In this document: piece by piece, positions 5,083 through 39,138 of the stretch
Layout: each line of letters opens with the position of its first letter
Numbering within the stretch: position 1 is the stretch's first letter
Notes under the pieces: model-generated
The model's input: the letters and a program-made list of their open reading frames with translations, nothing else
Database searches by the model: none
Told to the model about the DNA's origin: nothing
Translations under genes and position numbers: made by a program
Virus record (IMG/VR): IMGVR_UViG_3300007871_000061
Span: 1-40,592 of that record
From: a virus
Reading direction: 5' to 3' (one strand)
DNA length: 40,592 nt

Positions 5083-5157
5083 CAACAAAAGCCAGGTTAT
5101 TTGTATTATTTTTTATCCGTGTAAAAAGGGTTGAATATATTTTTAGCTGGGCTTAAT

Positions 5158-5670
5158 ATGCAACGCATGACGACACTATCAAACAATATCCAACGGCTGC
5201 GTAAAGCAGCAGGTCTTACACAGGCTAAACTCGGTCAGCTCTGCGGTGGTTTATCCGGCCCGGCTGTGTCCATGTGGGAAAGCGACGATAATCCAACGCT
5301 GCCGAAGCATGAAGCCCTGATACAACTGGCCGCACTGTTCAAACTCACGGTAGACGAACTGCTCAGCGACCCCGACGCAAAGCCAGGCGGTACAGTTTTA
5401 CTTACGCTTGACAATAAAACTCTGGAAAAAGTGTTTGAAGCTATCGACGAGCTGGATGAATTAAATTACACTTTTACGAAAGCATCACTTAAAGAAAAAG
5501 CGTACACCTTCGGACTGCTTTACAGTCTGTTTATCGACATGGGAGAGCATGAACTCACGATAGACTCGCTGTCTCGAATGCTGGGTAATAGTGGGCATGA
5601 ACGAACGACAATTAAGGCTAATAACAGCGCTAAGAAACGCCGTACAGCAGACAAAACCGGTAAAAATTAG
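5158..5670 (+). CDS. CI-like repressor without protease domain, 170 aa
   Basis: An XRE helix-turn-helix fills residues 3-65 (NNIQRLRKAAGLTQAKLGQLC...PAVSMWESD...LAALFKLTVDELL). The remaining 100 residues are acidic helices and a basic tail (KKRRTADKTGKN); the LexA/S24 Ala-Gly site and Ser/Lys catalytic residues of classical CI are not visible. Start at 5158 is preferred over a TTG at 5131 because TGGGCTTAATATG resembles the phage's leader motif. It is divergent from cro, which supports the role of prophage repressor. Induction is likely by a route other than self-cleavage. Confidence 0.8.
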   Translation: MQRMTTLSNNIQRLRKAAGLTQAKLGQLCGGLSGPAVSMWESDDNPTLPKHEALIQLAALFKLTVDELLSDPDAKPGGTVLLTLDNKTLEKVFEAIDELDELNYTFTKASLKEKAYTFGLLYSLFIDMGEHELTIDSLSRMLGNSGHERTTIKANNSAKKRRTADKTGKN

Positions 5671-5741: not shown

Positions 5742-5765
5742 AACCCGCTTCGGCGGGTTTTTTTT
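5742..5765 (+). terminator. Intrinsic terminator after the repressor gene
   Basis: AACCCGC-TTCG-GCGGGTT forms a 7-bp stem with a stable tetraloop, followed by eight T. It separates the repressor transcript from the recombination genes downstream. Confidence 0.9.
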
Positions 5766-5786: not shown

Positions 5787-5815
5787 TTGCCACGAATTTA
5801 AGCCGCTCTTATACT
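5787..5815 (+). promoter_or_regulatory. Promoter for the recombination genes
   Basis: TTGCCA (5787-5792) and TATACT (5810-5815) are exactly 17 bases apart. The predicted start near 5822 is only two bases before the ATG at 5824, so the transcript may be leaderless. No operator of the TAAGT type is seen here. Confidence 0.65.
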
Positions 5816-5823
5816 GGCCTCAG

Positions 5824-6114
5824 ATGGACGACGACGAATATTTCTACTACCACGCTTACGAAGACATGAAAGACGCTCAACAGGAACAAGTCAACGTCAT
5901 GGCTGAACGGCTGCTGGTGGACTATTGGCAGGATATTGGAACCATACAAGAAGCAATAAAAGAGGGGCTATCAGAAAATGACACATACGCGTTACTGCTG
6001 GTTAAGTATCACAAAGAAAACAATCTTGAAGCGGCGGGAGACATTACGTTATCGCTCATCCATCGCTATCTGCTTAGTTGCGCAAACCAAGAGGCCGAAA
6101 ATAAACTGACATGA
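5824..6114 (+). CDS. Acidic hypothetical protein, 96 aa
   Basis: The protein is acidic and helical, beginning MDDDEYFYYHAYEDM; I recognise no family. No Shine-Dalgarno precedes the ATG and the promoter places the RNA start almost at the ATG, so leaderless translation is plausible, as for lambda cI from PRM. It overlaps the Rad52-like gene by 4 bases (ATGA) and is probably its partner or a nuclease inhibitor; that role is only inferred from position. Confidence 0.75.
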   Translation: MDDDEYFYYHAYEDMKDAQQEQVNVMAERLLVDYWQDIGTIQEAIKEGLSENDTYALLLVKYHKENNLEAAGDITLSLIHRYLLSCANQEAENKLT

Positions 6115-6902
6115 CAACAGAAACCGATAATCTATATCTATGGGGCCAGGTCGAAGGCACCGACCCGAAATATGCAAAGCCTGTTAAGTATGGCGCGCAC
6201 CACTTCACCGCGATAGACGCGTACTACCAGATCAAGACGGCCACGGAAATGTGGGGCCCGTATGGTATCGACTGGGGATTGATTGATACCGTGTATCACC
6301 CTGTACCCAATACCCCGCTGATGCACCTGTCAGCAAAGTTTAAATACCCGCATGGCAAGTTTGAGATATCGACGGCCATCATGGTTGTCAGCAGCAAGGG
6401 TATCTATGATGATGATTTTGCCAAAAAGGCTGAAACTGACCTGATCACCAAAAGCCTGTCCCGCCTGGGCTATAACGCCGACGTGTTCATGGGTAAGTTT
6501 GACGACAATAAATACGTGCAGGAGCAGGCCGACAAGTTCACCGAGACGTTTACCCCGGAACAGAAAGAGAAATTCGACGAGCTTCTGGCCAGCAACAACG
6601 CGATTGAGTACTACGTGTTTATTAATTCGCTCGACGGCCAGGTATGGGCTGATCTGTACAATTCATTCCCGAAGGGCCAGAAAGTCAAAATGAAGGCCGT
6701 AGCGACCCGTCTGGAAAAAAAGGGGCAGAATGAAATGGACGAACGCATCTGCCAGATGGTAGAGCGTATCGACGCCGCAGACTCTTCCGGGCTCTTAGAA
6801 TTGGTCGACGAGCTGAGCGTGGAGGTCACGGCAATGATGAAAGACCGTCTGACCACTGAGCAGCTATTCCAGATGAGTGAAGTATTTAAATCAGCAGCTT
6901 AA
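6111..6902 (+). CDS. Rad52/Sak-type single-strand annealing protein, 263 aa
   Basis: Residues 28-135 fit the Rad52-like annealing fold of phage recombinases: FTAIDAYYQIKTATEMWGPYGIDWG, then a beta section, then FAKKAETDLITKSLSRLGYNADVFMGKFDDNKYV. The last block (A-TDA-KKSLS-LGF-ADV-MG-DD-YV) is the most typical part. The C-terminal 120 residues are acidic helices. Such proteins anneal complementary strands in phage recombination, usually with SSB. The phage's SSB-like protein is in the early minus-strand operon. RecT/Erf alternatives fit less well. Confidence 0.7.
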   Translation: MTTETDNLYLWGQVEGTDPKYAKPVKYGAHHFTAIDAYYQIKTATEMWGPYGIDWGLIDTVYHPVPNTPLMHLSAKFKYPHGKFEISTAIMVVSSKGIYDDDFAKKAETDLITKSLSRLGYNADVFMGKFDDNKYVQEQADKFTETFTPEQKEKFDELLASNNAIEYYVFINSLDGQVWADLYNSFPKGQKVKMKAVATRLEKKGQNEMDERICQMVERIDAADSSGLLELVDELSVEVTAMMKDRLTTEQLFQMSEVFKSAA

Positions 6903-6906
6903 AGCT

Positions 6907-6985
6907 TTAGCTTGGCTTAACTTTTGTGGTATAGTCTTAAGTAGGACAACCCTAGCAAGGACGCTATTTATATCAACTACTTAAG
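6907..6985 (+). promoter_or_regulatory. Promoter with paired repressor half-sites
   Basis: TTAGCT (6907-6912), 17 bases, then an extended -10 TGG-TATAGT (6927-6935). CTTAAGTAG (6936-6944) lies at the predicted start and its exact inverse CTACTTAAG at 6977-6985, 9 bp each with 32 bases between. Both contain the TAAGT/ACTTA half of the CI/Cro operator. A repressor dimer pair or loop could shut this promoter, which serves the paralogue pair and probably xis and int. Confidence 0.6.
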
Positions 6986-6998
6986 AAGAGACTTAAAT

Positions 6999-7493
6999 AT
7001 GACTCCACAATTTGATTTTACCGTAGACATTAAGCCCCGACTGGGCATGACTGGGCTGGCTTTTCCGAGAGATGAATGCGCAATGATTAACGTCAAGTCA
7101 GCGTATGCAGGCAAAACTAGCAAAAGCGTATCAATGCAAATTCAGATTCGCGTCAATGAGCCGGTAATGAAGCAAGCCGGTATCAACATCGGCGATATGG
7201 TAATCGCCAGAATGTCAGCCTGCGGCAAAGCGATGCAAGTCGAAAAGGCATCAGCAGGCTATAAAGTTGTACCCTACGGAGACAATAGCCCCGAAACCTC
7301 ACAAGCATTAAAAGGCAAACCAAGTAAATCGACGATTAAAATGACGATTCCCCCGGAAGAACACCGACGCGTTAAGGCCGCAAAAGTAAACGGCGACATT
7401 GATGTTTACGACGTAATAGAGATACACAAGGGCGATAAGGACTCAAAAGGCTCTTTCATTATTGACACAACCTTATTGTTAAACAAAAAGTAA
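6999..7493 (+). CDS. Unrecognised protein A of a paralogous pair, 164 aa
   Basis: I do not recognise the family. Residues 48-82 (IQIRVNEPVMKQAGINIGDMV-ARMSACGKAMQVEK) align well with residues 24-58 of the next gene's product. Pattern GI-IGD-V followed by a short strand is reminiscent of AbrB/SpoVT swapped-hairpin domains, but this is weak. The second half is Lys-rich and polar. The ATG has AAGAAGAG 9 bases upstream. It is the first gene of a transcript with phage-operator half-sites at its start, leading to the excisionase and integrase, so a role in lysogeny or integration is possible. Confidence 0.75.
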   Translation: MTPQFDFTVDIKPRLGMTGLAFPRDECAMINVKSAYAGKTSKSVSMQIQIRVNEPVMKQAGINIGDMVIARMSACGKAMQVEKASAGYKVVPYGDNSPETSQALKGKPSKSTIKMTIPPEEHRRVKAAKVNGDIDVYDVIEIHKGDKDSKGSFIIDTTLLLNKK

Positions 7494-7512
7494 ACTATTT
7501 TAGGTATTTCTA

Positions 7513-8001
7513 ATGTTTAAATGGCTTAATGATAAATGCGTGGCGGTAACTGTTTCACGGGAAACTTTTACAAAGATACATATAATTATTCGGATTCAAG
7601 ACAGCGTTATGAAAGACTCCGGCCTGAGAATTGGTGACAAAGTTGCAGTTAAACTTTCCTCGTGCGGTACTGCTTTACAGCTACTACGCGAGGGCACCAT
7701 TAATAGGCCAGGCAAGGGTCGAAAAATAATGCCTCTCAAATCCGGTATGAAAGCCAACTTGAGCAAAGGTAAACATTGGGCAGGTAAGCTTACTTTTTCG
7801 CTTCTGAGCGAAGACCTACAAGGTCTCACAGTAAGCAGCGACATGCCTTATATTTGCCTGGACATGATAGACGGGGGCCACGGCAACCTGATCATAGACA
7901 TGCTCGATATTTTTAAACCATTAAATATCGGAACACCTAATGAACCTGTTAACTTTCAACGACGCGGCGAGCATCTGCCAGTGCTCTGTGAAGACACTTA
8001 A
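7513..8001 (+). CDS. Unrecognised protein B of a paralogous pair, 162 aa
   Basis: This product shares with its upstream neighbour the core R-[IV]-x-[DE]-x-VMK-x-[AS]-G-x-x-IGD-x-V-x-x-[KR]-x-S-x-CG-x-A-x-Q (residues 27-56), while the flanks differ, so the two arose by an old tandem duplication. The middle is basic (RPGKGRKIMPLKSGMKANLSKGKHW), suggesting nucleic-acid binding. Its last 62 bases overlap the excisionase-like gene. No enzymatic motif is visible and no function can be named. Confidence 0.75.
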   Translation: MFKWLNDKCVAVTVSRETFTKIHIIIRIQDSVMKDSGLRIGDKVAVKLSSCGTALQLLREGTINRPGKGRKIMPLKSGMKANLSKGKHWAGKLTFSLLSEDLQGLTVSSDMPYICLDMIDGGHGNLIIDMLDIFKPLNIGTPNEPVNFQRRGEHLPVLCEDT

Positions 8002-8230
8002 GAGAGCAGCCGCAAACAAATGCCTGCGAGTTGTCCGGCTCGGTTCCGGTGCAAGATCGGACAGAATACACCCGGACGACTTGCAGGCTTACATTGACGA
8101 CCTAAGAGGGCTAAACACATGGCAGTCAAAAAGAACGGTAAGACCTATCAAATCAGATTCAACCATAACGGGCAGCAAATTAAATTCTCTGCTGGCAAAG
8201 GGGCCACAAAAGAGCAGGCAGAAGAGTTAG
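7940..8230 (+). CDS. xis: Excisionase-like HTH_17 protein
   Basis: Residues 4-55 form an HTH_17/excisionase domain: LTFNDAASICQCSVKTLKRAAANKCLRVVRLG, then SDRIHPDDLQAYIDDL. The domain needs the start at 7940, so it truly overlaps the preceding gene by 62 bases. The frame continues 112 bases into the integrase gene, giving a basic Ser/Lys tail that may be non-conserved. Overlap of xis with int, directly upstream of it, recalls lambda. It likely steers the integrase to excision; the plus-strand HTH_17 gene at 1.97 kb is a rival candidate. Confidence 0.75.
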   Translation: MNLLTFNDAASICQCSVKTLKRAAANKCLRVVRLGSGARSDRIHPDDLQAYIDDLRGLNTWQSKRTVRPIKSDSTITGSKLNSLLAKGPQKSRQKS

Positions 8231-9117
8231 AGCTACTAAAGCGCAAAGAGCTGCGCGACATTGACAATGGATTAATTCCAGACAAGAGCATTGAAGACGC
8301 TCTGATTAAATGGCTTGAAGAATATGTTCCACACCTGGCCGGTGCATCAAAGTACTATTCTCACGCAAGGGCAATCGAGCCTTACATTGTAAACAAACCG
8401 ATGAAGGATATTTATAGAGTTGCGGGAATGATGAAGCGAGATATGCAGCACAAGGGATTAGCCAACGCGACAATTAACCGCAGGCTTTCCGTGCTAAAGC
8501 GTGTTGCTTCACTGGCATTTTCAGAATGGAGGTGGCTGAATGAGTCACCGTATAAAAAGATAGAGTCTTTAGCAGAGAATAACGCTAGAGACACTGTGTT
8601 GACTATGGCGGAAGTGGAGAAATTAGCCGACTGTGCGCCGACCGCTTTCGTTGCTGACTTGATAAAGTTTGCGGCGTGTACTGGCTTGCGGCGTGCAGAG
8701 ATATGGCGGCTTGATGATGATTCATTGAGGGGCACTGATTTGCACGTCAAGGGCAAGGGGCACCGTAATCGAACTATCCCCCTGCATTCTGAGCAAGCAG
8801 CGTTTGTGCGCAAGTGGGTGCCGATAGGGCTCACGAATGAGATGGCTATGCGCTACTTTCGGATGGCCCGACATAAGGCCGACATGGAGTATGTCAACTT
8901 TCACGACTTGCGGCATACGTTTGGTACATGGCTGGCCCAGGACAAACAGGCGACTCATGTCATTATGCGCCTGATGGGGCATACGACTGTGCAGATGGCT
9001 AACCGGTATATCAGTCTATGCACTGATGATCTGCGCGAAGCCATGCCTAAGATGCCGACAACCTCGCCCGAAAATCGTACCGGCAATGCTCGAAAGAAGT
9101 TTAAGGTGGTTAAGTAA
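8119..9117 (+). CDS. int: Tyrosine integrase, 332 aa
   Basis: The layout is an N-terminal arm-binding-type domain (1-55), core-binding helices (57-150) and a catalytic domain with all residues in place: Arg191 (TGLRRAE), Lys213, His262 and Arg265 (HDLRHT), His288 (LMGHTT) and Tyr297 (ANRY). Start at 8119 has AAGAGGGC at 8104-8111. Its 3' end is 20 bases from a tRNA-Cys-like attP core, so site-specific integration into a tRNA-Cys gene is expected. A 20-base segment of its 3' coding end is repeated beyond attP. It is the last gene of the plus-strand integration operon. Confidence 0.95.
   Translation: MAVKKNGKTYQIRFNHNGQQIKFSAGKGATKEQAEELELLKRKELRDIDNGLIPDKSIEDALIKWLEEYVPHLAGASKYYSHARAIEPYIVNKPMKDIYRVAGMMKRDMQHKGLANATINRRLSVLKRVASLAFSEWRWLNESPYKKIESLAENNARDTVLTMAEVEKLADCAPTAFVADLIKFAACTGLRRAEIWRLDDDSLRGTDLHVKGKGHRNRTIPLHSEQAAFVRKWVPIGLTNEMAMRYFRMARHKADMEYVNFHDLRHTFGTWLAQDKQATHVIMRLMGHTTVQMANRYISLCTDDLREAMPKMPTTSPENRTGNARKKFKVVK
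9063..9082 (+). repeat. 20-bp direct repeat, copy 1 (inside int 3' end)
   Basis: This 20-bp segment, CTCGCCCG...CGTACCG, is repeated exactly at 9260-9279, 197 bp downstream on the other side of attP. Here it is coding. Confidence 0.95.
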
Positions 9118-9135
9118 ATGTATGATTATAAAGGT

Positions 9136-9178
9136 GAGGCGGAAGGGAGAATCGAACTCCCGTACACGGATTTGCAAT
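9136..9178. other. attP: attP core: 3' half of tRNA-Cys(GCA), minus sense
   Basis: Read on the minus strand this is the tRNA-Cys 3' half: anticodon loop TTGCAAA (plus 9171-9177), stem TCCGT, variable loop, T-arm GGGAG-TTCGATT-CTCCC (plus 9045-offset: 9145-9161), acceptor TTCCGCC (plus 9138-9144) and discriminator T (9137). The 5' side is missing: bases past 9178 do not pair with the anticodon stem and there is no D-arm. This is the usual attP of phages that integrate into the anticodon-to-3'-end part of a tRNA gene and restore it. CCA is not fully matched, so identity ends near 9136. Confidence 0.85.
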
Positions 9179-9211
9179 GCGCCCCCGTCCGTATTATACA
9201 CAACATGTAGT

Positions 9212-12232: not shown

Positions 12233-15200
12233 TTAATCCATTATCGTATCTACGAAAGGCTCGTAAACTTCTTCTATCATGTACTCGCGCCCTGGCTCCG
12301 TGATATTCAGTATCGGTGTTTGCTTGGCGAGACGTTTTGCTACGCCTTCCGGGTTATCCGTCATTATCGGGTGCATGAGTTTTAAAAAGTCATTCAGTGT
12401 CGGGCCCAGTAATCCAGTGAAGCGGTGTATAACATGCTCACCGTAGTTGTACCGGTAGGGACTAAACATCGAGTACATGTGTGTTGCGCTGCCCGTCATT
12501 GCAGCACGGTCGACGGCATCAGCAAGGCGCATGGCTGGCTCTGTATCCTGCTCCTGGCCAGACATGTATTCGCGCATGTATTGCACATAGTAGGCAAGCG
12601 CTACCGCAGCAACCATGCCTGCAATTGTTTGTATCCGCGCCGTTGATGTATTCTCGCGGAGTGTGTTTTTAATGGCGCGCTTCAAAAAGGTATTAGAGAA
12701 TACCGCAGTAAATGATTTGAACAGGCTAACCTGTTGCCAGTGCGGGTCGCTCATCCATAACGGCTTCGTCGCTGCATTCGGGTGCGTGATTGTCCATGTA
12801 ATCCCGCGCTGTATGCCCCACTCAATTTGATTTTTCATAGCGCCGTCGGGCATACCATTCCTGTACCAGTCGACAAGGCGTACCGGGTCAATGCCTAGCT
12901 CGGTTAGTTTGCGCTTTGCGACGCGCTCAGCTTTAGCAGATAACTTCATGCCAAGCGCATTGCGGCCAGTGCTTAAATGTTTGGCGTCCGACATAATCAT
13001 GCTTTGCATCGTGTCATGTGCGACGACGCGCTGCATGTTGGTTAAATGCTCAAGCAGGGTCGCCTTCATAAAGCGATTCGTGATACCGCGCTGATAATTA
13101 GTAAGCCGGGCGGCCTGCATAGACTCAGTGTGCGCCTGAATAATGTTACCCATGCGCTTCAAATGCGTCTCTGTAATGCTGTGTGGTATGTGGCGCTTAC
13201 CCGTTATTAACCGGTCGGCGGCGGCCATGCCTTCACGCATTGAATAGGCAGCCCCTTTTAAATAGGCTTTCGGGTTAAAACCGAACTGGATTGCCGGGGC
13301 CATCGTTTCAGGCAGCGAAGCCAGGGCGACAAGGCCAAGGTGCGTTACTGTCTCATAAGCGGCGGCAGCACTATTGAGCGTCGCGCCTGCGCTGTTTTCG
13401 ATGGGCTTGTATGTTCCCTGCAAGGCGTCAGCCAGGTTATAGATTGAATTGGCGACGGCATCGGCCTTGTGCACGCCCACTTCGCGGATAACGTCGGCGG
13501 TCATACGGTTTAGGGTTTCCTCGTTCTTGCCGAAGGTGCGAACAAATTCTGAGCGCTGAGCAGCCCGGCGAATGTACTGGGTCAGAATACCCTCAAGGTC
13601 ACTAACCAGCCATTCAGTGCTCGCGCCCTCGGGTAGGTGCATCTTGCGGGAGCGCTCGGCGTGCGGATTCTTGACCGCATGAAAGCGTTGCTGAGCCCAC
13701 TGCTCAAAATTCATACCTTTGCGGTAACGAGGCGTGTCGGCAGTGAATGATGGAATACCGTCACCCTCTACAATATTCCTAAAGGTATTCTCTGCGGTGG
13801 CCCTGTCCATTTCAAAAGTTTCCTCAAGCCATGTACGAAACTTTTCAGGGTGTAGCTGTATCCTGCGTACGTCCCATACCTGGGGGAAATAGTTTTTTAG
13901 GTGGCCCACGTCCAGACCGGCCTCAAGCATGTACGCATTCAGCGAGTCGAGCATACCGCGCAATTGACGGGTTGAGCCTGCAAGGTGTTGCGGCACACGG
14001 CCCGTGCGTAAGCCAGTAATAACGGCATCGTTTACACTCTTCGGTACGCCGCCAAATCGGCCCTTTAATGGTTCCAGCAGGTTATTCAGTTGTAACTGAA
14101 ACTCACCACGGGCTTTCATGGTGCGCTGTATCAGGTCAGGGGTGACGCGTGTCGGTGAAGCCTCGTAGGCAAAGATCAGATCGGCCAGCTCTTTCGCGGT
14201 GGCGCTGGGCCAGTCGCGGATAATCTGCACGGGCTTATAGAAGAGTGTACGGCCCACAGCATCCCCGAAACTGACGAGGCCACCAAGAGCCAGCTTAACG
14301 GCACCGGCCACCGTATCTATTGCCAGCCTGGGTACGCCTAAATCAATATAGCCGCCTTGTTTACCGGGGTACGCTCTGCGGGTTTTGTTTTGCTGCTGCT
14401 CAATTAGATGGTTGCGCAGGGATTCCTGCAAGTTTGCGCCGGTCGGCTCTTTGCCGTAACTCGCACGGAAGGTGTCGGCCCATTTGTCAGCCTGGCTCTG
14501 TACTAATCGCTTGAAGTCGGCAGCTTTAGGGTATCTTTCTTTTGTCCTTTTATTAGCTTCAGCGACCGCCTTCGCTCTAGTGCTACCACGTCCCACAGAG
14601 AGACCTGTTGCGGGCTCTGTGACTGACCACTCGCCCCCTTCGCCAGCGCGTCGTCCGACTTGCATATCGACGCCGTGGACTTTAACAGGCGCAGTGTCGG
14701 TAAAGATCGGGGTGCTTTTGGCGGCTCCTTGTCCATACAGTAATGGCCTCTTGATAAGATCGGCTAACTCTATAGCGTTAGTGTACTCACCCTCAGTTAT
14801 AAAGTCACGAATGGATGTGGTATAGGTAGCGCCGGGCTTCGCGGGTTTTTTTGGCTTGGGCACGTCAAACATTTTCGACTTAGCCGCACTCTTACGCAGT
14901 AGCTCTAACCTCTCCTTAACATTGAGCACTTTATAGAGGCCGCCGCCTGGGATGGTAATTTCAATATATCCGGCTTTTTCTACTGCCTTGTTGAACGCGT
15001 CGATAGCCTTTGATGTTTCCGGCCTTACCGCTCTGCGTAGGTCATTAATGCTTGTAAATTTCTTGCCATCAAATTTACCCAGTGACGATAGCGGCTTGGC
15101 GGTCTCAATAGCCTGCATGATACGACGGTCAAGTTCTGCGGCCATTTCTTTTGGCGTGCCCCTAAACTCGGGGGCTTTGGGCGATAATGGTTGCCGTACC

Positions 15201-16618
15201 TTACCCATCTCAGTTACCGGGGCCTTTACTGGCTCCCTGAATGCGGCCAGTGCGCTTTCGATTTCAGGCTTACCCCAAAACGGGTCTTTGGTCTTAGTAC
15301 GTCGTTGCACAAAATCATACGCACCGCCTATGCCTGCTTCATTCGGTGCCACTTCTGCGGGCGGTAGTTTGTTATTTTTAGCATACGCATCGAGCGCGGC
15401 TTGTATTTCTTTCTGTGTCGGAGCCTTGCCGCCAAATTCCAGGCGGTAATCAACGGTACTGCCCAGCGCTTCATTGACGGGCATTTGTGCGCCACCCTCG
15501 TTCCACTGCTGAAACATGCCCTTTATAGTCAGATCAGCGGCTGGCGCTTCTGGCATCGGTAATGCGGCAGGGGCAACGGGTGCGGCGGCGGCCTGTGGTG
15601 CGGCTAATTGCTGCGCGGCTGCGGGCAGTTGTGGTTGTACCTGCTCGCCCTCGTATGTTCTGCCCTGTTTGGCAAGCTGTTGCTCCGTGTACGGCGGATA
15701 GTCGCGCAACACTTCGCCCTCGTATTCCTTGGGCCGCATCTCTTGAGCAGCGTCTTTGCCTAGCTGTTTCTCCCGCTCCTTCCAGCCTTCATAAGTACGG
15801 CCCTCGCGCATAGCAGCATCGGCAGCGGGAGAGCGATAACCTTCACCGGGAATATAATCACCCGCAGTCGGCGTACCTGGCTTCACTTCTTCGCCATAGA
15901 TATCGACGGTCGGGCCCTCTTCACCGGCCCTACCCTTCATCTTCCCATAAACGCGTGCACCACCGGCACCCACGGCCAGCGGGGCCACTAACTCGCCAGC
16001 CTCTGCTGCTATCTCGCCGTGCATCTGCCAGTAAGCAGGGTCGCGGTAAAATGGCTTATCACCCATTACCTGCTTTTCAAGGCCGCCGGGCTCACCATAC
16101 CTGCGGCCTTCTTCTTGCGCCTGCTTGTGCGGCTCTACTAACAAGTCTTGCAGCGGCGCGGATATGTACTCTTCCCACAGATTGCCTACTTTATTCATAT
16201 AACGCTGGCCAACGTGCGTGCGCGGCTCGTAGGTAAAATACTCCTGCCAGTACTTAAAGGCTTCCGGGTATTTATCCCAGTCGGCCTCAGTGAATGCGTT
16301 AATAAAGCCACCGGCCATTTTAGCGGTCGGGCCGCCTGCGGTTTCCTTTATGCCTTCGGCGACATTTTCAGCGCGATTCTCTGCAACAGCCTGGCGCACG
16401 CCTTCGGCACCTGCCGGTATAGCAGCAGCGAAGCCCGTACCCATTGCGCCCGCAACTTCGGCGGCACCTACTGGCGCTTCGGATAAATAGCCAAGGCCAC
16501 TATAATATTTCTCCTTAAGGTCGTTGTATTCCTGGCGCTGCAACATATTGCGGGCCATATCGCGGCCCTGCTTTTCACGCTTTAACTGCTCGTATTCTTC
16601 GCGGTTAAATTCGGTCAC
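12233..16618 (-). CDS. Giant internal virion/ejection protein, 1461 aa
   Basis: The length, Ala/Gly-rich hydrophobic stretches (GAMGTGFAAAIPAGAEG at about 55; GELVAPLAVGAGG at about 210), Pro/Ala-rich linker (320-360, with GRTYEG repeats) and helical C-terminal 700 residues fit the large DNA-ejection proteins of podoviruses (P22 gp16 or T7 gp16 role). NYFPQVWD and the final LFKSF--VFSN segment recall large polyvalent-protein-associated modules (LPD38-like). No lysozyme or peptidase motif is visible. Start is GTG at 16618, overlapping the upstream TGA (GTGA). It follows two smaller ejection proteins, the P22 order. Confidence 0.75.
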   Translation of the reverse strand: MTEFNREEYEQLKREKQGRDMARNMLQRQEYNDLKEKYYSGLGYLSEAPVGAAEVAGAMGTGFAAAIPAGAEGVRQAVAENRAENVAEGIKETAGGPTAKMAGGFINAFTEADWDKYPEAFKYWQEYFTYEPRTHVGQRYMNKVGNLWEEYISAPLQDLLVEPHKQAQEEGRRYGEPGGLEKQVMGDKPFYRDPAYWQMHGEIAAEAGELVAPLAVGAGGARVYGKMKGRAGEEGPTVDIYGEEVKPGTPTAGDYIPGEGYRSPAADAAMREGRTYEGWKEREKQLGKDAAQEMRPKEYEGEVLRDYPPYTEQQLAKQGRTYEGEQVQPQLPAAAQQLAAPQAAAAPVAPAALPMPEAPAADLTIKGMFQQWNEGGAQMPVNEALGSTVDYRLEFGGKAPTQKEIQAALDAYAKNNKLPPAEVAPNEAGIGGAYDFVQRRTKTKDPFWGKPEIESALAAFREPVKAPVTEMGKVRQPLSPKAPEFRGTPKEMAAELDRRIMQAIETAKPLSSLGKFDGKKFTSINDLRRAVRPETSKAIDAFNKAVEKAGYIEITIPGGGLYKVLNVKERLELLRKSAAKSKMFDVPKPKKPAKPGATYTTSIRDFITEGEYTNAIELADLIKRPLLYGQGAAKSTPIFTDTAPVKVHGVDMQVGRRAGEGGEWSVTEPATGLSVGRGSTRAKAVAEANKRTKERYPKAADFKRLVQSQADKWADTFRASYGKEPTGANLQESLRNHLIEQQQNKTRRAYPGKQGGYIDLGVPRLAIDTVAGAVKLALGGLVSFGDAVGRTLFYKPVQIIRDWPSATAKELADLIFAYEASPTRVTPDLIQRTMKARGEFQLQLNNLLEPLKGRFGGVPKSVNDAVITGLRTGRVPQHLAGSTRQLRGMLDSLNAYMLEAGLDVGHLKNYFPQVWDVRRIQLHPEKFRTWLEETFEMDRATAENTFRNIVEGDGIPSFTADTPRYRKGMNFEQWAQQRFHAVKNPHAERSRKMHLPEGASTEWLVSDLEGILTQYIRRAAQRSEFVRTFGKNEETLNRMTADVIREVGVHKADAVANSIYNLADALQGTYKPIENSAGATLNSAAAAYETVTHLGLVALASLPETMAPAIQFGFNPKAYLKGAAYSMREGMAAADRLITGKRHIPHSITETHLKRMGNIIQAHTESMQAARLTNYQRGITNRFMKATLLEHLTNMQRVVAHDTMQSMIMSDAKHLSTGRNALGMKLSAKAERVAKRKLTELGIDPVRLVDWYRNGMPDGAMKNQIEWGIQRGITWTITHPNAATKPLWMSDPHWQQVSLFKSFTAVFSNTFLKRAIKNTLRENTSTARIQTIAGMVAAVALAYYVQYMREYMSGQEQDTEPAMRLADAVDRAAMTGSATHMYSMFSPYRYNYGEHVIHRFTGLLGPTLNDFLKLMHPIMTDNPEGVAKRLAKQTPILNITEPGREYMIEEVYEPFVDTIMD

Positions 16619-21244: not shown

Positions 21245-21945
21245 GCAATAATCTCCATCGCAAACCATGTGCCATTAGCGCCGGTTATCACATTGATACT
21301 ACCCGTTGAGTCTTGCAGAAACGCCAGGGTGAAATAATTGCCCGCTACAACCTCTAGCACAGGTGTTGTGACTGTGATATGACTTGCTGACGCACCGAAG
21401 GGTAAGAGCGTTTTATTAGCCGCGCCGTCATACGCAGCTACATTGTTCTTTTTTATATAGACATTACGCGTGCCTGTCGTATTTATATCTGTCCATTGTA
21501 AATTGGCCGTTACGCGCACCTTTGTTACGCCTATTGGCACGACTAGCCTTTCATTCGTTACAGCAGTGTTATGTATAGACAGGTCGTCGTAATGCTCATC
21601 ATCAAATGCGATTATTTTTTCAACACCGGTTAGCGCCTGATTCGCTGCATTTGTGAAGACTAGCGCGCCGTCAGCCTTGTTTGGTAAGTTGTTTAAATTA
21701 TCCGTGTCGTAATAAGTGACCGTCTCTGCGGCGTTTTTCAGCACAACACGATAACCACCGTCTACCCATATTGTCGCGCGGCCACCAGCGTCGAGAACAA
21801 CGGGTTGCGGCAAGGCCACTGTCTGCGCGTAATCAGAATAGACGGTTTTATTTGACGATGTACCCGGCTCATAAAAATAAACATGGCCACTCGCCAGGGG
21901 GTTGCCCGAGTTATCGAGCCCTTGAAATTGCGCACCGACAAACAT
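21241..21945 (-). CDS. Fibre-like receptor-binding protein, copy 3, 234 aa
   Basis: The N-terminal 90 residues (FQGLDNSGNPLASGHVYFYEPGTSSNKTVYSD... LDAGGRATIWVDGGYRVVL) are the capsid-attachment domain seen in tailspikes and fibres. The C-terminal half (LSIHNTAVTNERLVVPIGVTKVRVTANLQW...NYFTLAFLQDSTG...WFAMEI) resembles a C1q/TNF-like jelly roll, a trimeric binding domain. It is linked to its sister by TAATG. C-terminal sequence differs most among the three copies, as expected for receptor binding. Confidence 0.75.
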   Translation of the reverse strand: MFVGAQFQGLDNSGNPLASGHVYFYEPGTSSNKTVYSDYAQTVALPQPVVLDAGGRATIWVDGGYRVVLKNAAETVTYYDTDNLNNLPNKADGALVFTNAANQALTGVEKIIAFDDEHYDDLSIHNTAVTNERLVVPIGVTKVRVTANLQWTDINTTGTRNVYIKKNNVAAYDGAANKTLLPFGASASHITVTTPVLEVVAGNYFTLAFLQDSTGSINVITGANGTWFAMEIIA

Positions 21946-22652
21946 TATTTAACAATCTCCATTGAGAAAGTGCTGCCGCTATTTACCGTTACAGCTACCC
22001 CGGAAGTTTGCAAAAATACCACTTCAAAATAGTTACCACCCGTCACTTCAATGATCGGGCCCATAGTATTAAGCCCGCCTTGCCCTAGATTGCCCTGCGC
22101 TTCTTTTGAATCTATTGTGTTGCCGCCATAGGCTGCGCCGCCTTTTGTCACCGATATTTGCCGAATACCCGTGGTATTCACGTCTAACCATTCAATGTTT
22201 GCGCTCAACCGCACCCGGCTTACACCTGCCGGGACAGTCAAGCGAGTATTATTAGTCGATTCATGGATAGCGTTAGTGTCGTAGTACTCAATACCAAAAG
22301 GAATTGCTGTAGGTGTTGAGCTTGCTACGTTAATGTCGAACAAAAAGCTTACAAGCGCACCACCGGATAACGATGACGATGAGGTAGTGTTTATATCATC
22401 CTCTGAATAGATTAGTGTACCGGCTGCGTCTTCCATCCTGACGCGATAAATACCACTTAGCCAAACAGTTGCGCGGCCATTAGCATTTAGAGTTACAGGA
22501 TTGGTATTCTTATAAACTAACTTGCTATCAGTGTAGGTGTCTTTAAATTCTGCCGACCGATTCGCGTAAAAATAGACTTTCCCGCCTACTAATGGGTCGC
22601 CGCTGTCGTCAAACGCCTGCATTTCCCCGTTTAAAAAATTCAATACAGCCAT
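21945..22652 (-). CDS. Fibre-like receptor-binding protein, copy 2, 235 aa
   Basis: Same two-domain layout as its neighbours: attachment domain (MQAFDDSGDPLVGGKVYFY...LNANGRATVWLSGIYRVRME, 1-80) and C1q-like jelly roll (about 120-235; LTVPAGVSRVRLSANIEW, YFEVVFLQTSG). It starts and ends in one-base TAATG overlaps, so the three genes are translated as a coupled set. No enzymatic depolymerase motif is visible. Confidence 0.75.
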   Translation of the reverse strand: MAVLNFLNGEMQAFDDSGDPLVGGKVYFYANRSAEFKDTYTDSKLVYKNTNPVTLNANGRATVWLSGIYRVRMEDAAGTLIYSEDDINTTSSSSLSGGALVSFLFDINVASSTPTAIPFGIEYYDTNAIHESTNNTRLTVPAGVSRVRLSANIEWLDVNTTGIRQISVTKGGAAYGGNTIDSKEAQGNLGQGGLNTMGPIIEVTGGNYFEVVFLQTSGVAVTVNSGSTFSMEIVK

Positions 22653-23359
22653 TAGCTAATTACTTCCATTGCAAGCCAGGTAAATTCAGCACCACCGGAT
22701 ATAGTCATGTCGGAGCCCTTGGTGTGTCGAAACTGTATTTCAAACCATTCGCCTTCGGTTACTTCAAGCATCGGTGTAGTGCATTGCAAATAACTCGATG
22801 CCTTGCTTAAGTCTTGGTCTTTAACATCGCCAGCATAACTTGCGCGTCCCTTTGGTATTCGCAATACACGCGAGCCCGGCCCGCCGCCCTGGCAATGTAC
22901 TTGCGCTGTTAGGCGTATACGGCTAACGCCAGTCGGTACGGTCAGGCGAGAATTGTTAGTAACTAAGTCGTGAATACCACTGGTGTCGTAAACTTCACCA
23001 TCAAGCCCGATATAGGTAAACGTGTTCGTAGTGATGGCTGTATCATTTTCAAGATTCGCAAGCGCGCCGAGTGCACCGAGCAAGCCGCTCTGTGCGTCCA
23101 GATTATCCTCTTCATATATCTGCACGCCGTTAACGTCTTCTAACACGACCTTGTACAACCCGCTTAAAAAGACTGTGCCCCTTCCGCCGGTATCAAGCAC
23201 GACGGGTGAAGCATTCGGGCTTGTTAGCGCTACATCGGTGTACGTGTCTTTCGGTGTACGCGTGCCCGCTTCATAGAAATAGACTTTGCCGTTGGCTAGT
23301 GGGTCGCCATTATCATCAATGCCCTGAAACTGGCCACCCACAAAATTAATAATCGCCAT
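22652..23359 (-). CDS. Fibre-like receptor-binding protein, copy 1, 235 aa
   Basis: First of three tandem paralogues. Attachment domain at 1-80 (FQGIDDNGDPLANGKVYFYEAGTRTPKDTYTD...LDTGGRGTVFLSGLYKVVLED), linker, then jelly roll (LTVPTGVSRIRLTAQVHC...WFEIQFRHTKG...WLAMEV). It is joined to the gp4-like adaptor gene by a TAATG overlap. Position at the tail hub fits proteins carried around the portal-tail junction. Confidence 0.75.
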   Translation of the reverse strand: MAIINFVGGQFQGIDDNGDPLANGKVYFYEAGTRTPKDTYTDVALTSPNASPVVLDTGGRGTVFLSGLYKVVLEDVNGVQIYEEDNLDAQSGLLGALGALANLENDTAITTNTFTYIGLDGEVYDTSGIHDLVTNNSRLTVPTGVSRIRLTAQVHCQGGGPGSRVLRIPKGRASYAGDVKDQDLSKASSYLQCTTPMLEVTEGEWFEIQFRHTKGSDMTISGGAEFTWLAMEVIS

Positions 23360-24087
23360 TACTGTCGCCCGTAATTATCCGACGTAATACTGTAACGACC
23401 GCCGCGACGTATACCGCGATCTACGATTAACACCTCTTCACGGTTAGCGCGCGCCAGGCGTTTAATATTTTTCTTGGATTCGACCGCCGCCGTCATAATT
23501 TCAGCGCTAACCTTCATGCCGTAATCCGGGGCCAGGTCAACACACAAATTAAACTTAATCGCTCTTAGGTGTGAGTCTGGTAAAGCAATTGTCTGGTTAA
23601 GGCTGGTAAACTGCGCTATCTCTTCCATTGTGGTGAGATGCAGCGTGAGCGTGGTCAGGGGCTGAAAGTCATAATGAATCTTACCCAGCGGATATTCAGG
23701 CTCGTAGTACAACCGTGTTGGGTAGTTTTCAACAGCCTTAAAACCTATATCACCGTAACGCCTGAAACTCATCAGCTCTAGCGCATAGTCGTTACCCTCC
23801 GGGTCGCGGTGGAAAGCATCCAGAACATAGTCAGGCCGCTTAACACCAGTACCCACATCCAAGTCGCCGCCGTCACCTATGGTGTACTCGTTTTTAGACG
23901 TGGCATAACTAAAGGTGCGCTTAGTGCGTGCGGGTATTGTCAGGTTTTCACCTATCCACGAGGCCAGCATTTGATTAACGATTTCTAACGCATCAGCGCC
24001 CTGCTCTGCGGTCATATCACGACCACGACCGACACGGCCCAAAGCTCGCAATGAGCCCTTGAGTAATTCGCGCACCGTTGTAGCCAT
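23359..24087 (-). CDS. gp4-like head-tail adaptor, 242 aa
   Basis: The protein follows the P22 gp4 (tail accessory factor) pattern: LLKGSLRALGRVGRGRDMTAEQGADALEIVNQMLASW at the front, then YTIGDGGDLDVG, RPDYVLDAFHRDPEGNDYALELMSF, and a helical end. gp4 binds the portal after packaging and carries the rest of the tail. It sits between a 64-aa gene and the fibre set, in P22-like order. It has no enzymatic motif that I can see. Confidence 0.8.
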   Translation of the reverse strand: MATTVRELLKGSLRALGRVGRGRDMTAEQGADALEIVNQMLASWIGENLTIPARTKRTFSYATSKNEYTIGDGGDLDVGTGVKRPDYVLDAFHRDPEGNDYALELMSFRRYGDIGFKAVENYPTRLYYEPEYPLGKIHYDFQPLTTLTLHLTTMEEIAQFTSLNQTIALPDSHLRAIKFNLCVDLAPDYGMKVSAEIMTAAVESKKNIKRLARANREEVLIVDRGIRRGGRYSITSDNYGRQ

Positions 24088-38234: not shown

Positions 38235-38295
38235 ATTCTATTTCGTGGTATTTTTATAGTCTCAATCAATGCAACATTTTAAGAGGGCTTATATT

Positions 38296-39138
38296 ATGAG
38301 TAATCAGGTTTATCAGATCATCACAGATCAAATCATTTCGCAGCTGGAAGCGGGCGTGGTTCCCTGGCATAAGCCGTGGAACACTTCCGGCTTGATGCCG
38401 ACTAATTTTGTAAGCAATAAAGAGTATCGCGGTATTAACCCGTTCTTGCTTGAATCTGCGGGCTTTGAGTGCCCGTACTGGTTGACCTTCAAACAGGCAA
38501 AGCTGAAAGGCGGGACAGTTCGCAAAGGTGAAAAGGGCTCTATCGTCATATTCTGGAAACTTAACGAATATGAGAACGAAGAGAATCCAGAAGGGCCCGC
38601 GCGAAAGGTGCCGATCTTGCGCTATTACAAGGTGTTTAACCTGTCACAGTGTGACGGCTTAGACTGGGATAAACCCGCCCCCGTAAACGACTTCAAACCG
38701 ATAGAAGAGGCGGAGCGCATCGCAAGCGGTTACAAGGGCCCGGAAGTCAAACACGGTAAGGGGCGCGCTTGCTATCATCCACAGCTTGATTATATCGAGA
38801 TGCCGGACGCGGAGCGCTTCGACTGCGGCGAGGAATACTATTCTACATTGTTCCACGAGATGGGCCACAGTACCGGGAACAAGAACAGGTTAAACCGCGC
38901 AAGCTTGACAGAATCGGCCTATTTTGGAAGCCATGAATATTCAAAAGAAGAGCTTGTAGCAGAGTTCACCGCGTCTTTTCTCTGCGGCGTCTCGCATATC
39001 GAACAGGCCACACTTGCTAATTCAGCGGCGTATATTGCAGGCTGGAAACGCAAGCTAAAAGACGACGCGAAACTAATCGTACAGGCCGCCGCGAACGCCC
39101 AGAAGGCCGCCGACCTGATAAGAGGTATCAAGCACTAG
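38296..39138 (+). CDS. ArdC-like antirestriction protein with metallopeptidase, 280 aa
   Basis: The N-terminal domain (1-125) is the ArdC/DUF1738 ssDNA-binding type: ITDQIISQLEAGVVPWHKPW, NKEYRGINPFLL, YWLTFKQAKLKGGTVRKGEKG, RYYKVFNLSQC. The C-terminal domain holds HEMGH (187-191), then Glu219/Glu223 (KEELVAEFTASFL), a zincin active site. ArdC of plasmid pSa protects incoming ssDNA from restriction. AAGAGGGCTT (38281-38290) precedes the ATG. It heads the plus-strand operon that enters the host or acts first after infection. Confidence 0.85.
   Translation: MSNQVYQIITDQIISQLEAGVVPWHKPWNTSGLMPTNFVSNKEYRGINPFLLESAGFECPYWLTFKQAKLKGGTVRKGEKGSIVIFWKLNEYENEENPEGPARKVPILRYYKVFNLSQCDGLDWDKPAPVNDFKPIEEAERIASGYKGPEVKHGKGRACYHPQLDYIEMPDAERFDCGEEYYSTLFHEMGHSTGNKNRLNRASLTESAYFGSHEYSKEELVAEFTASFLCGVSHIEQATLANSAAYIAGWKRKLKDDAKLIVQAAANAQKAADLIRGIKH

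Follow-up and report, generated by a model that had tools for sequence, protein, structure and literature searches.

A diverged tandem pair with a predicted GD-box core adjoins the putative xis and int genes of a phage

What are the two adjacent genes that lie between a recombination gene and the integration genes of this phage, and are they regulators of integration or something else? The DNA analysed (the window, 40,592 bases) is a whole virus record, that of a temperate, P22-like marine podophage, with portal, major head protein and scaffold matching head-and-packaging PHROGs, and Vibrio and Shewanella phage portals ~40% identical to its own; megablast of bases 1-25000 found no close phage relative in GenBank. 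Elsewhere in the window, we noted a PHROG 7245 anti-restriction family protein (38269-39138; E=2e-74), three successive genes in the structural region (21945-24087) whose products, of 235, 235 and 242 aa, are possibly tandem paralogues, and a 1461-aa virion protein (12233-16618) that matches virion structural PHROGs and, weakly, endolysin ones and is probably an internal protein ejected from the particle.

Both genes are open frames on the plus strand, ORF1 (P0001; 6999-7493) of 164 aa and ORF2 (P0002; 7513-8001) of 162 aa, as an earlier note on this DNA had reported. A BLASTP alignment of the two spans 141 aa at 26% identity (43.5 bits, E=1e-10), and their Smith-Waterman score is 104, where shuffled sequences average 28.7 (sd 4.6; z=16). 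Within the window, tblastn with ORF1 recovered ORF2, aligned over 40 residues at 40% identity, and did not reveal a third copy. The claim that the two have a core in common and otherwise differ was exact: the likeness lies wholly inside ~40 residues (~45-84 of ORF1, in which residues ~46-84, at 7134-7250, read MQIQIRVNEPVMKQAGINIGDMVIARMSACGKAMQVEKA; ~20-59 of ORF2, in which residues ~22-58, at 7576-7686, read IHIIIRIQDSVMKDSGLRIGDKVAVKLSSCGTALQLL), with the common pattern IR[VIL]xxxVMKxxG[IL]xIGDxV...SxCGxAxQ. Of 2000 shuffles, 1064 aligned as well as the C-terminal parts, whose likeness is at shuffle level, and 67 did as well as the N-terminal parts, whose likeness is marginal. ORF1 and ORF2 are a real pair, strongly diverged around a single common core, and exemplify paralogue divergence within a single phage operon.

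Cdc48/VAT N-domains and AbrB-type antitoxins are textbook GD-box proteins, and a degenerate DNA pattern of the core run against 84,980 genomes found mostly Cdc48/VAT ATPase N-domains and an AbrB-type antitoxin, with no orphan relative of ORF1 or ORF2. Since these proteins had been retrieved by the core pattern itself, independent tests were made using a profile of ORF1, ORF2 and a phage GD-box protein from contig L025 (see below). In hhalign, this three-protein profile matched a MazE/AbrB set (PF04014 members from 36 random gammaproteobacterial genomes) with P=70% (score 28.8 over 43 columns; best of 60 column shuffles 14.3), and a Cdc48-N set with P=79% (score 35.0; best of 60 column shuffles 20.2), the latter test being less independent because its PF02359 members came from genomes reached via the core pattern. 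When 24 window proteins were compared as single sequences, ORF1 and ORF2 took ranks 1 and 2 against both profiles, and both have the GD-box beta-alpha-beta element in PF04014 register. Among all PDB sequences, the best match of the three-protein profile (E=0.026) was msDPBB_sym2, a double-psi barrel that is designed and symmetric; double-psi barrels made up three of the five matches at E<=10, aligned at the GD-box motif (msDPBB_sym2, a VCP-like ATPase and FwdD). PF08922 (DUF1905) also matched ORF2 weakly at the core segment (E=0.064). Judged from these comparisons, the core is a GD box, which forms the beta-alpha-beta element in cradle-loop barrels such as AbrB/MazE swapped hairpins and Cdc48-N-type double-psi barrels. 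These barrels, of which the GD box is the hallmark, combine two beta-alpha-beta copies, supplied by the partners of a dimer in AbrB and by one chain in MraZ and DPBBs (PMC4739770; PMC11258233). In the C-terminal halves of ORF1 and ORF2 a second copy scored at noise level, with a strand-helix-strand pattern possible by eye, and the single detectable GD box fits, but does not prove, a one-copy, dimeric, AbrB-like arrangement.

Beyond the core, the description of the pair as unrecognised holds for the full proteins, which no family model fits, but not for the core, which is recognisable as a cradle-loop-barrel (AbrB/DPBB) GD box. Neither ORF had a significant model in Pfam, NCBIfam, PADLOC or PHROG; PF04014 gave no match even at E<=10, its curated cut-off not being passed, PADLOC returned zero families and no defence or anti-defence model, and no Xis family, HTH or winged-helix Xis fold was matched (Pfam, PHROG). 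We found no significant full-length relative of the two among PDB sequences, no recognisable relative of either in GenBank phages or of ORF1 in plasmids (tblastn), and no close relative in viral contigs by exact peptide patterns; degenerate core patterns, run on the viral contigs, turned up a single genuine GD-box phage protein, present in two contigs, the other hits being unrelated. PHROG 31780, a candidate relative of ORF1 (E=0.11), was dropped, with no genome match and the same weak match only in the window. Profile searches, of the kind that the earlier note had suggested, covered ~1,000 proteobacterial genomes (369 gammaproteobacterial, 289 alphaproteobacterial and 343 from a single order) and gave only a formylmethanofuran dehydrogenase-type DPBB and noise. 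By these searches, the pair is an orphan among the family libraries, PDB, GenBank phages, plasmids and bacterial genomes covered. Structure prediction, likewise suggested, did not show the barrel: AlphaFold2 with a three-row alignment gave mean pLDDT of 33.2 (ORF1) and 32.6 (ORF2) and no confident fold, with a low-confidence strand-helix-strand-strand core in both models, and at pLDDT 33 Foldseek matches carry no weight. On the reading that we prefer, ORF1 and ORF2 would be cradle-loop barrels of the AbrB/MazE swapped-hairpin type, or of a closely related one, and each would have a C-terminal extension of its own.

Downstream, ORF2 overlaps by 62 nt a gene for a putative Xis of 96 aa (7940-8230, plus strand; Pfam HTH_17 at E=1e-4, below the gathering score, and PHROG excisionase at E=0.017), which in turn overlaps by 112 nt the gene of a tyrosine integrase (8119-9117, plus strand; PF00589, E=1.3e-18), in agreement with the claim that the tandem copies adjoin xis and int. 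Directly 3' of int, on the minus strand, lies the 3' half of a tRNA-Cys gene (9128-9182), 76-80% identical to gammaproteobacterial tRNA-Cys genes over 53-55 bases and up to 86% over shorter stretches. It is a probable attP core, a tRNA 3' half downstream of int being a normal attP location. A link of the pair to xis and int is likely. Contig L003, whose integrase is 32% identical, was considered as a neighbourhood relative and rejected, the GD-box pair being absent upstream of its integrase.

Upstream, the layout of genes and signals on the plus strand speaks against the earlier placement of the pair at the head of a repressor-linked integration transcript. The Cro/C1-type repressor gene (5131-5670; HTH_3, E=5e-8) is followed by a strong terminator-like hairpin with a T8 run (5742-5759), 3' of which a promoter-like site (5787-5815) serves a 96-aa gene and the gene for a single-strand-annealing/'exonuclease' family recombination protein (6111-6902; phrog_7838, E=1e-31). 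Given the terminator after the repressor gene and the separate promoter-like sites, such a transcript is unlikely. In front of ORF1 we read by eye an extended -10-like box (6927-6935, TGGTATAGT) that a strict scan did not call and whose -35 is poor (TTAGCT, 6907-6912). There is also a perfect 10-bp inverted repeat, a candidate operator, whose left arm (TCTTAAGTAG, 6935-6944) and right arm (CTACTTAAGA, 6977-6986) have centres 42 bp apart, about four helical turns, the right arm ending just before the ribosome-binding region. When the 96-bp gap was shuffled 2000 times, 15 of the versions had a perfect repeat of this length (chance probability near 0.01); as RNA, the repeat folds into a hairpin (z = -2.0), and further copies of the repeat or of CTTAAG elsewhere in the window were not above chance. 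The notion of a regulated slot thus survives in part, in the ORF2-xis-int overlaps and in the promoter-like box and inverted repeat 5' of ORF1, but not as a slot on the repressor transcript.

Starting from the tandem copies, their GD-box core, the lack of full-length relatives and the overlaps of ORF2, xis and int, we infer a model in which ORF1 and ORF2 would be DNA-binding GD-box barrel proteins that regulate their own transcript and so tune an ORF1-ORF2-xis-int operon apart from the C1-type repressor. Each would dimerise through a swapped-hairpin barrel, possibly also with the other; the dimer would bind the CTTAAG-centred inverted repeat between the -10-like box and the ORF1 start, and when bound would repress or tune the operon, so that the output of Int and Xis would not depend on the C1-type repressor, whose own transcript would end at the 5742-5759 hairpin. 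The binding and tuning of their own transcript is proposed by analogy with C68 of pSSVx, a viral AbrB-like protein with two binding sites at its own promoter region (PMC5569661). We put this model forward tentatively, as a reading that we hold at somewhat under even chances. Some barrels with no DNA-binding activity (Cdc48-N and the DPBBs of molybdopterin enzymes) have GD boxes too; the AbrB core would cover only ~45 of ~163 residues; no Pfam, NCBIfam, PADLOC or PHROG model was significant; the low pLDDT leaves the barrel as predicted only; and the inverted repeat, at the chance level given above, does not recur in the window more often than expected by chance. The heteromeric factor envisaged in the earlier note is plausible, since GD-box proteins of the swapped-hairpin kind must dimerise. 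A stronger version, in which the duplicated and diverged pair forms an obligate hetero-oligomer acting as a second lysogeny switch, with xis-int control separate from the C1-type repressor, is in our view improbable. Were the autoregulator model confirmed, AbrB-like barrels would join the regulators of temperate phage excision and integration, among which HTH proteins dominate; as it stands, the model turns an unrecognised pair into a testable prediction, namely an ancient fold of DNA-binding type set in tandem before phage integration genes.

The sole phage protein that we found with a core of the ORF1/ORF2 type (IRLGVDVMKKCGLLLGDKV) is a 137-aa protein in contigs L004 and L025 (4575-4985 in L025). 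Its gene stands alone between genes for a MuF-like head protein and a prohead protease (names read from translations), with a promoter-like site 5' and a terminator-like hairpin 3' of it. It resembles ORF1 and ORF2 in core, in similar size and in being phage-encoded, but differs from them as a lone gene in a head operon. A profile of the two ORFs scored it at 14.2 bits, as against 15.9 for AbrB and 16.5 for Cdc48, and since it does no better than these we consider it only a fellow GD-box protein, its family membership with ORF1 and ORF2 being unproven. The case shows that phage GD-box proteins need not be tied to integration and, being away from int, it counts against the autoregulator model.

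It bears equally on the main rival, that ORF1 and ORF2 are moron-type accessory genes, expressed from their own promoter in the prophage and of use to lysogen or phage in counter-defence, in superinfection exclusion or in some other form of host takeover, with the site before xis and int as a tolerant cargo slot. The L025 gene, of similar product size and with flanking signals of its own, would fit such a role, as would the promoter-like box and intergenic gap before ORF1, an orphan status of the kind typical of cargo genes, and a G+C content (0.448 in ORF1, 0.438 in ORF2) slightly below that of the window (0.498). However, the L025 protein scores no closer to the pair than AbrB or Cdc48, PADLOC matched no defence or anti-defence model, and the overlap of ORF2 with xis points to an integrated operon more than to a loose insertion. 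We regard a moron role as somewhat unlikely, and two further roles as less likely than this one. In the first, ORF1 and ORF2 would be recombination accessory proteins, for instance DNA-binding or loading factors, that work with the single-strand-annealing protein. ORF1 does lie directly 3' of the recombinase gene on the same strand, and in Xanthomonas phage Kintu genes for a recombinase, an ssDNA-binding protein and an endonuclease come after the related gene; but ORF1 is separated from the recombinase gene by the 96-bp gap with its promoter-like features, the core is a GD box and not an OB fold (the OB-fold matches of ORF1 came from the unusable model), and a profile scan of the loci in Vibrio phage 1.151.O and Kintu revealed no GD-box protein 3' of the recombinase gene, so that we doubt this role strongly. 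MazE-family antitoxins carry a GD-box domain followed by a toxin-binding C-terminal tail and the three-protein profile matches PF04014 members, but antitoxin-like or decayed toxin-antitoxin genes, with the toxin lost or unrecognised, seem very improbable here, as the GD box is present in both genes and neither is therefore obviously a toxin, the neighbours (SSAP, Xis-like, Int) matched no toxin model, whether MazF/PemK or another, and C-terminal parts of 80-100 aa are long for MazE tails.

How, then, would ORF1 and ORF2, taken as autoregulated GD-box proteins, compare with known systems? C68, from the Sulfolobus plasmid-virus pSSVx, is a viral swapped-hairpin regulator, as they are proposed to be, but is archaeal, encoded by a single gene and 68 aa long by its name. 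With Cdc48/VAT N-domain-type DPBBs (PF02359) and msDPBB_sym2 they have their strongest motif match, IR[VIL]xxxVMxxxG[IL]x[IL]GDxV; DPBBs, however, have two beta-alpha-beta elements per chain, whereas in ORF1 and ORF2 the second was undetected in the C-terminal halves and there is no ATPase. With AbrB/SpoVT/MazE (PF04014) they have in common a strand, a helix, a GxxxGDxV turn and two strands in the same order, the hhalign match spanning 43 columns of a ~45-column domain, but unlike those proteins they leave the PF04014 model silent, have no clear SKGQ signature, carry 80-100 additional C-terminal residues without a match and occur as two tandem diverged copies. Altogether, the GD-box/AbrB-type fold to which they are assigned is a known one; no like pair was found in the collections searched, and what appears to be new is a tandem, diverged pair of such proteins placed before xis and int.
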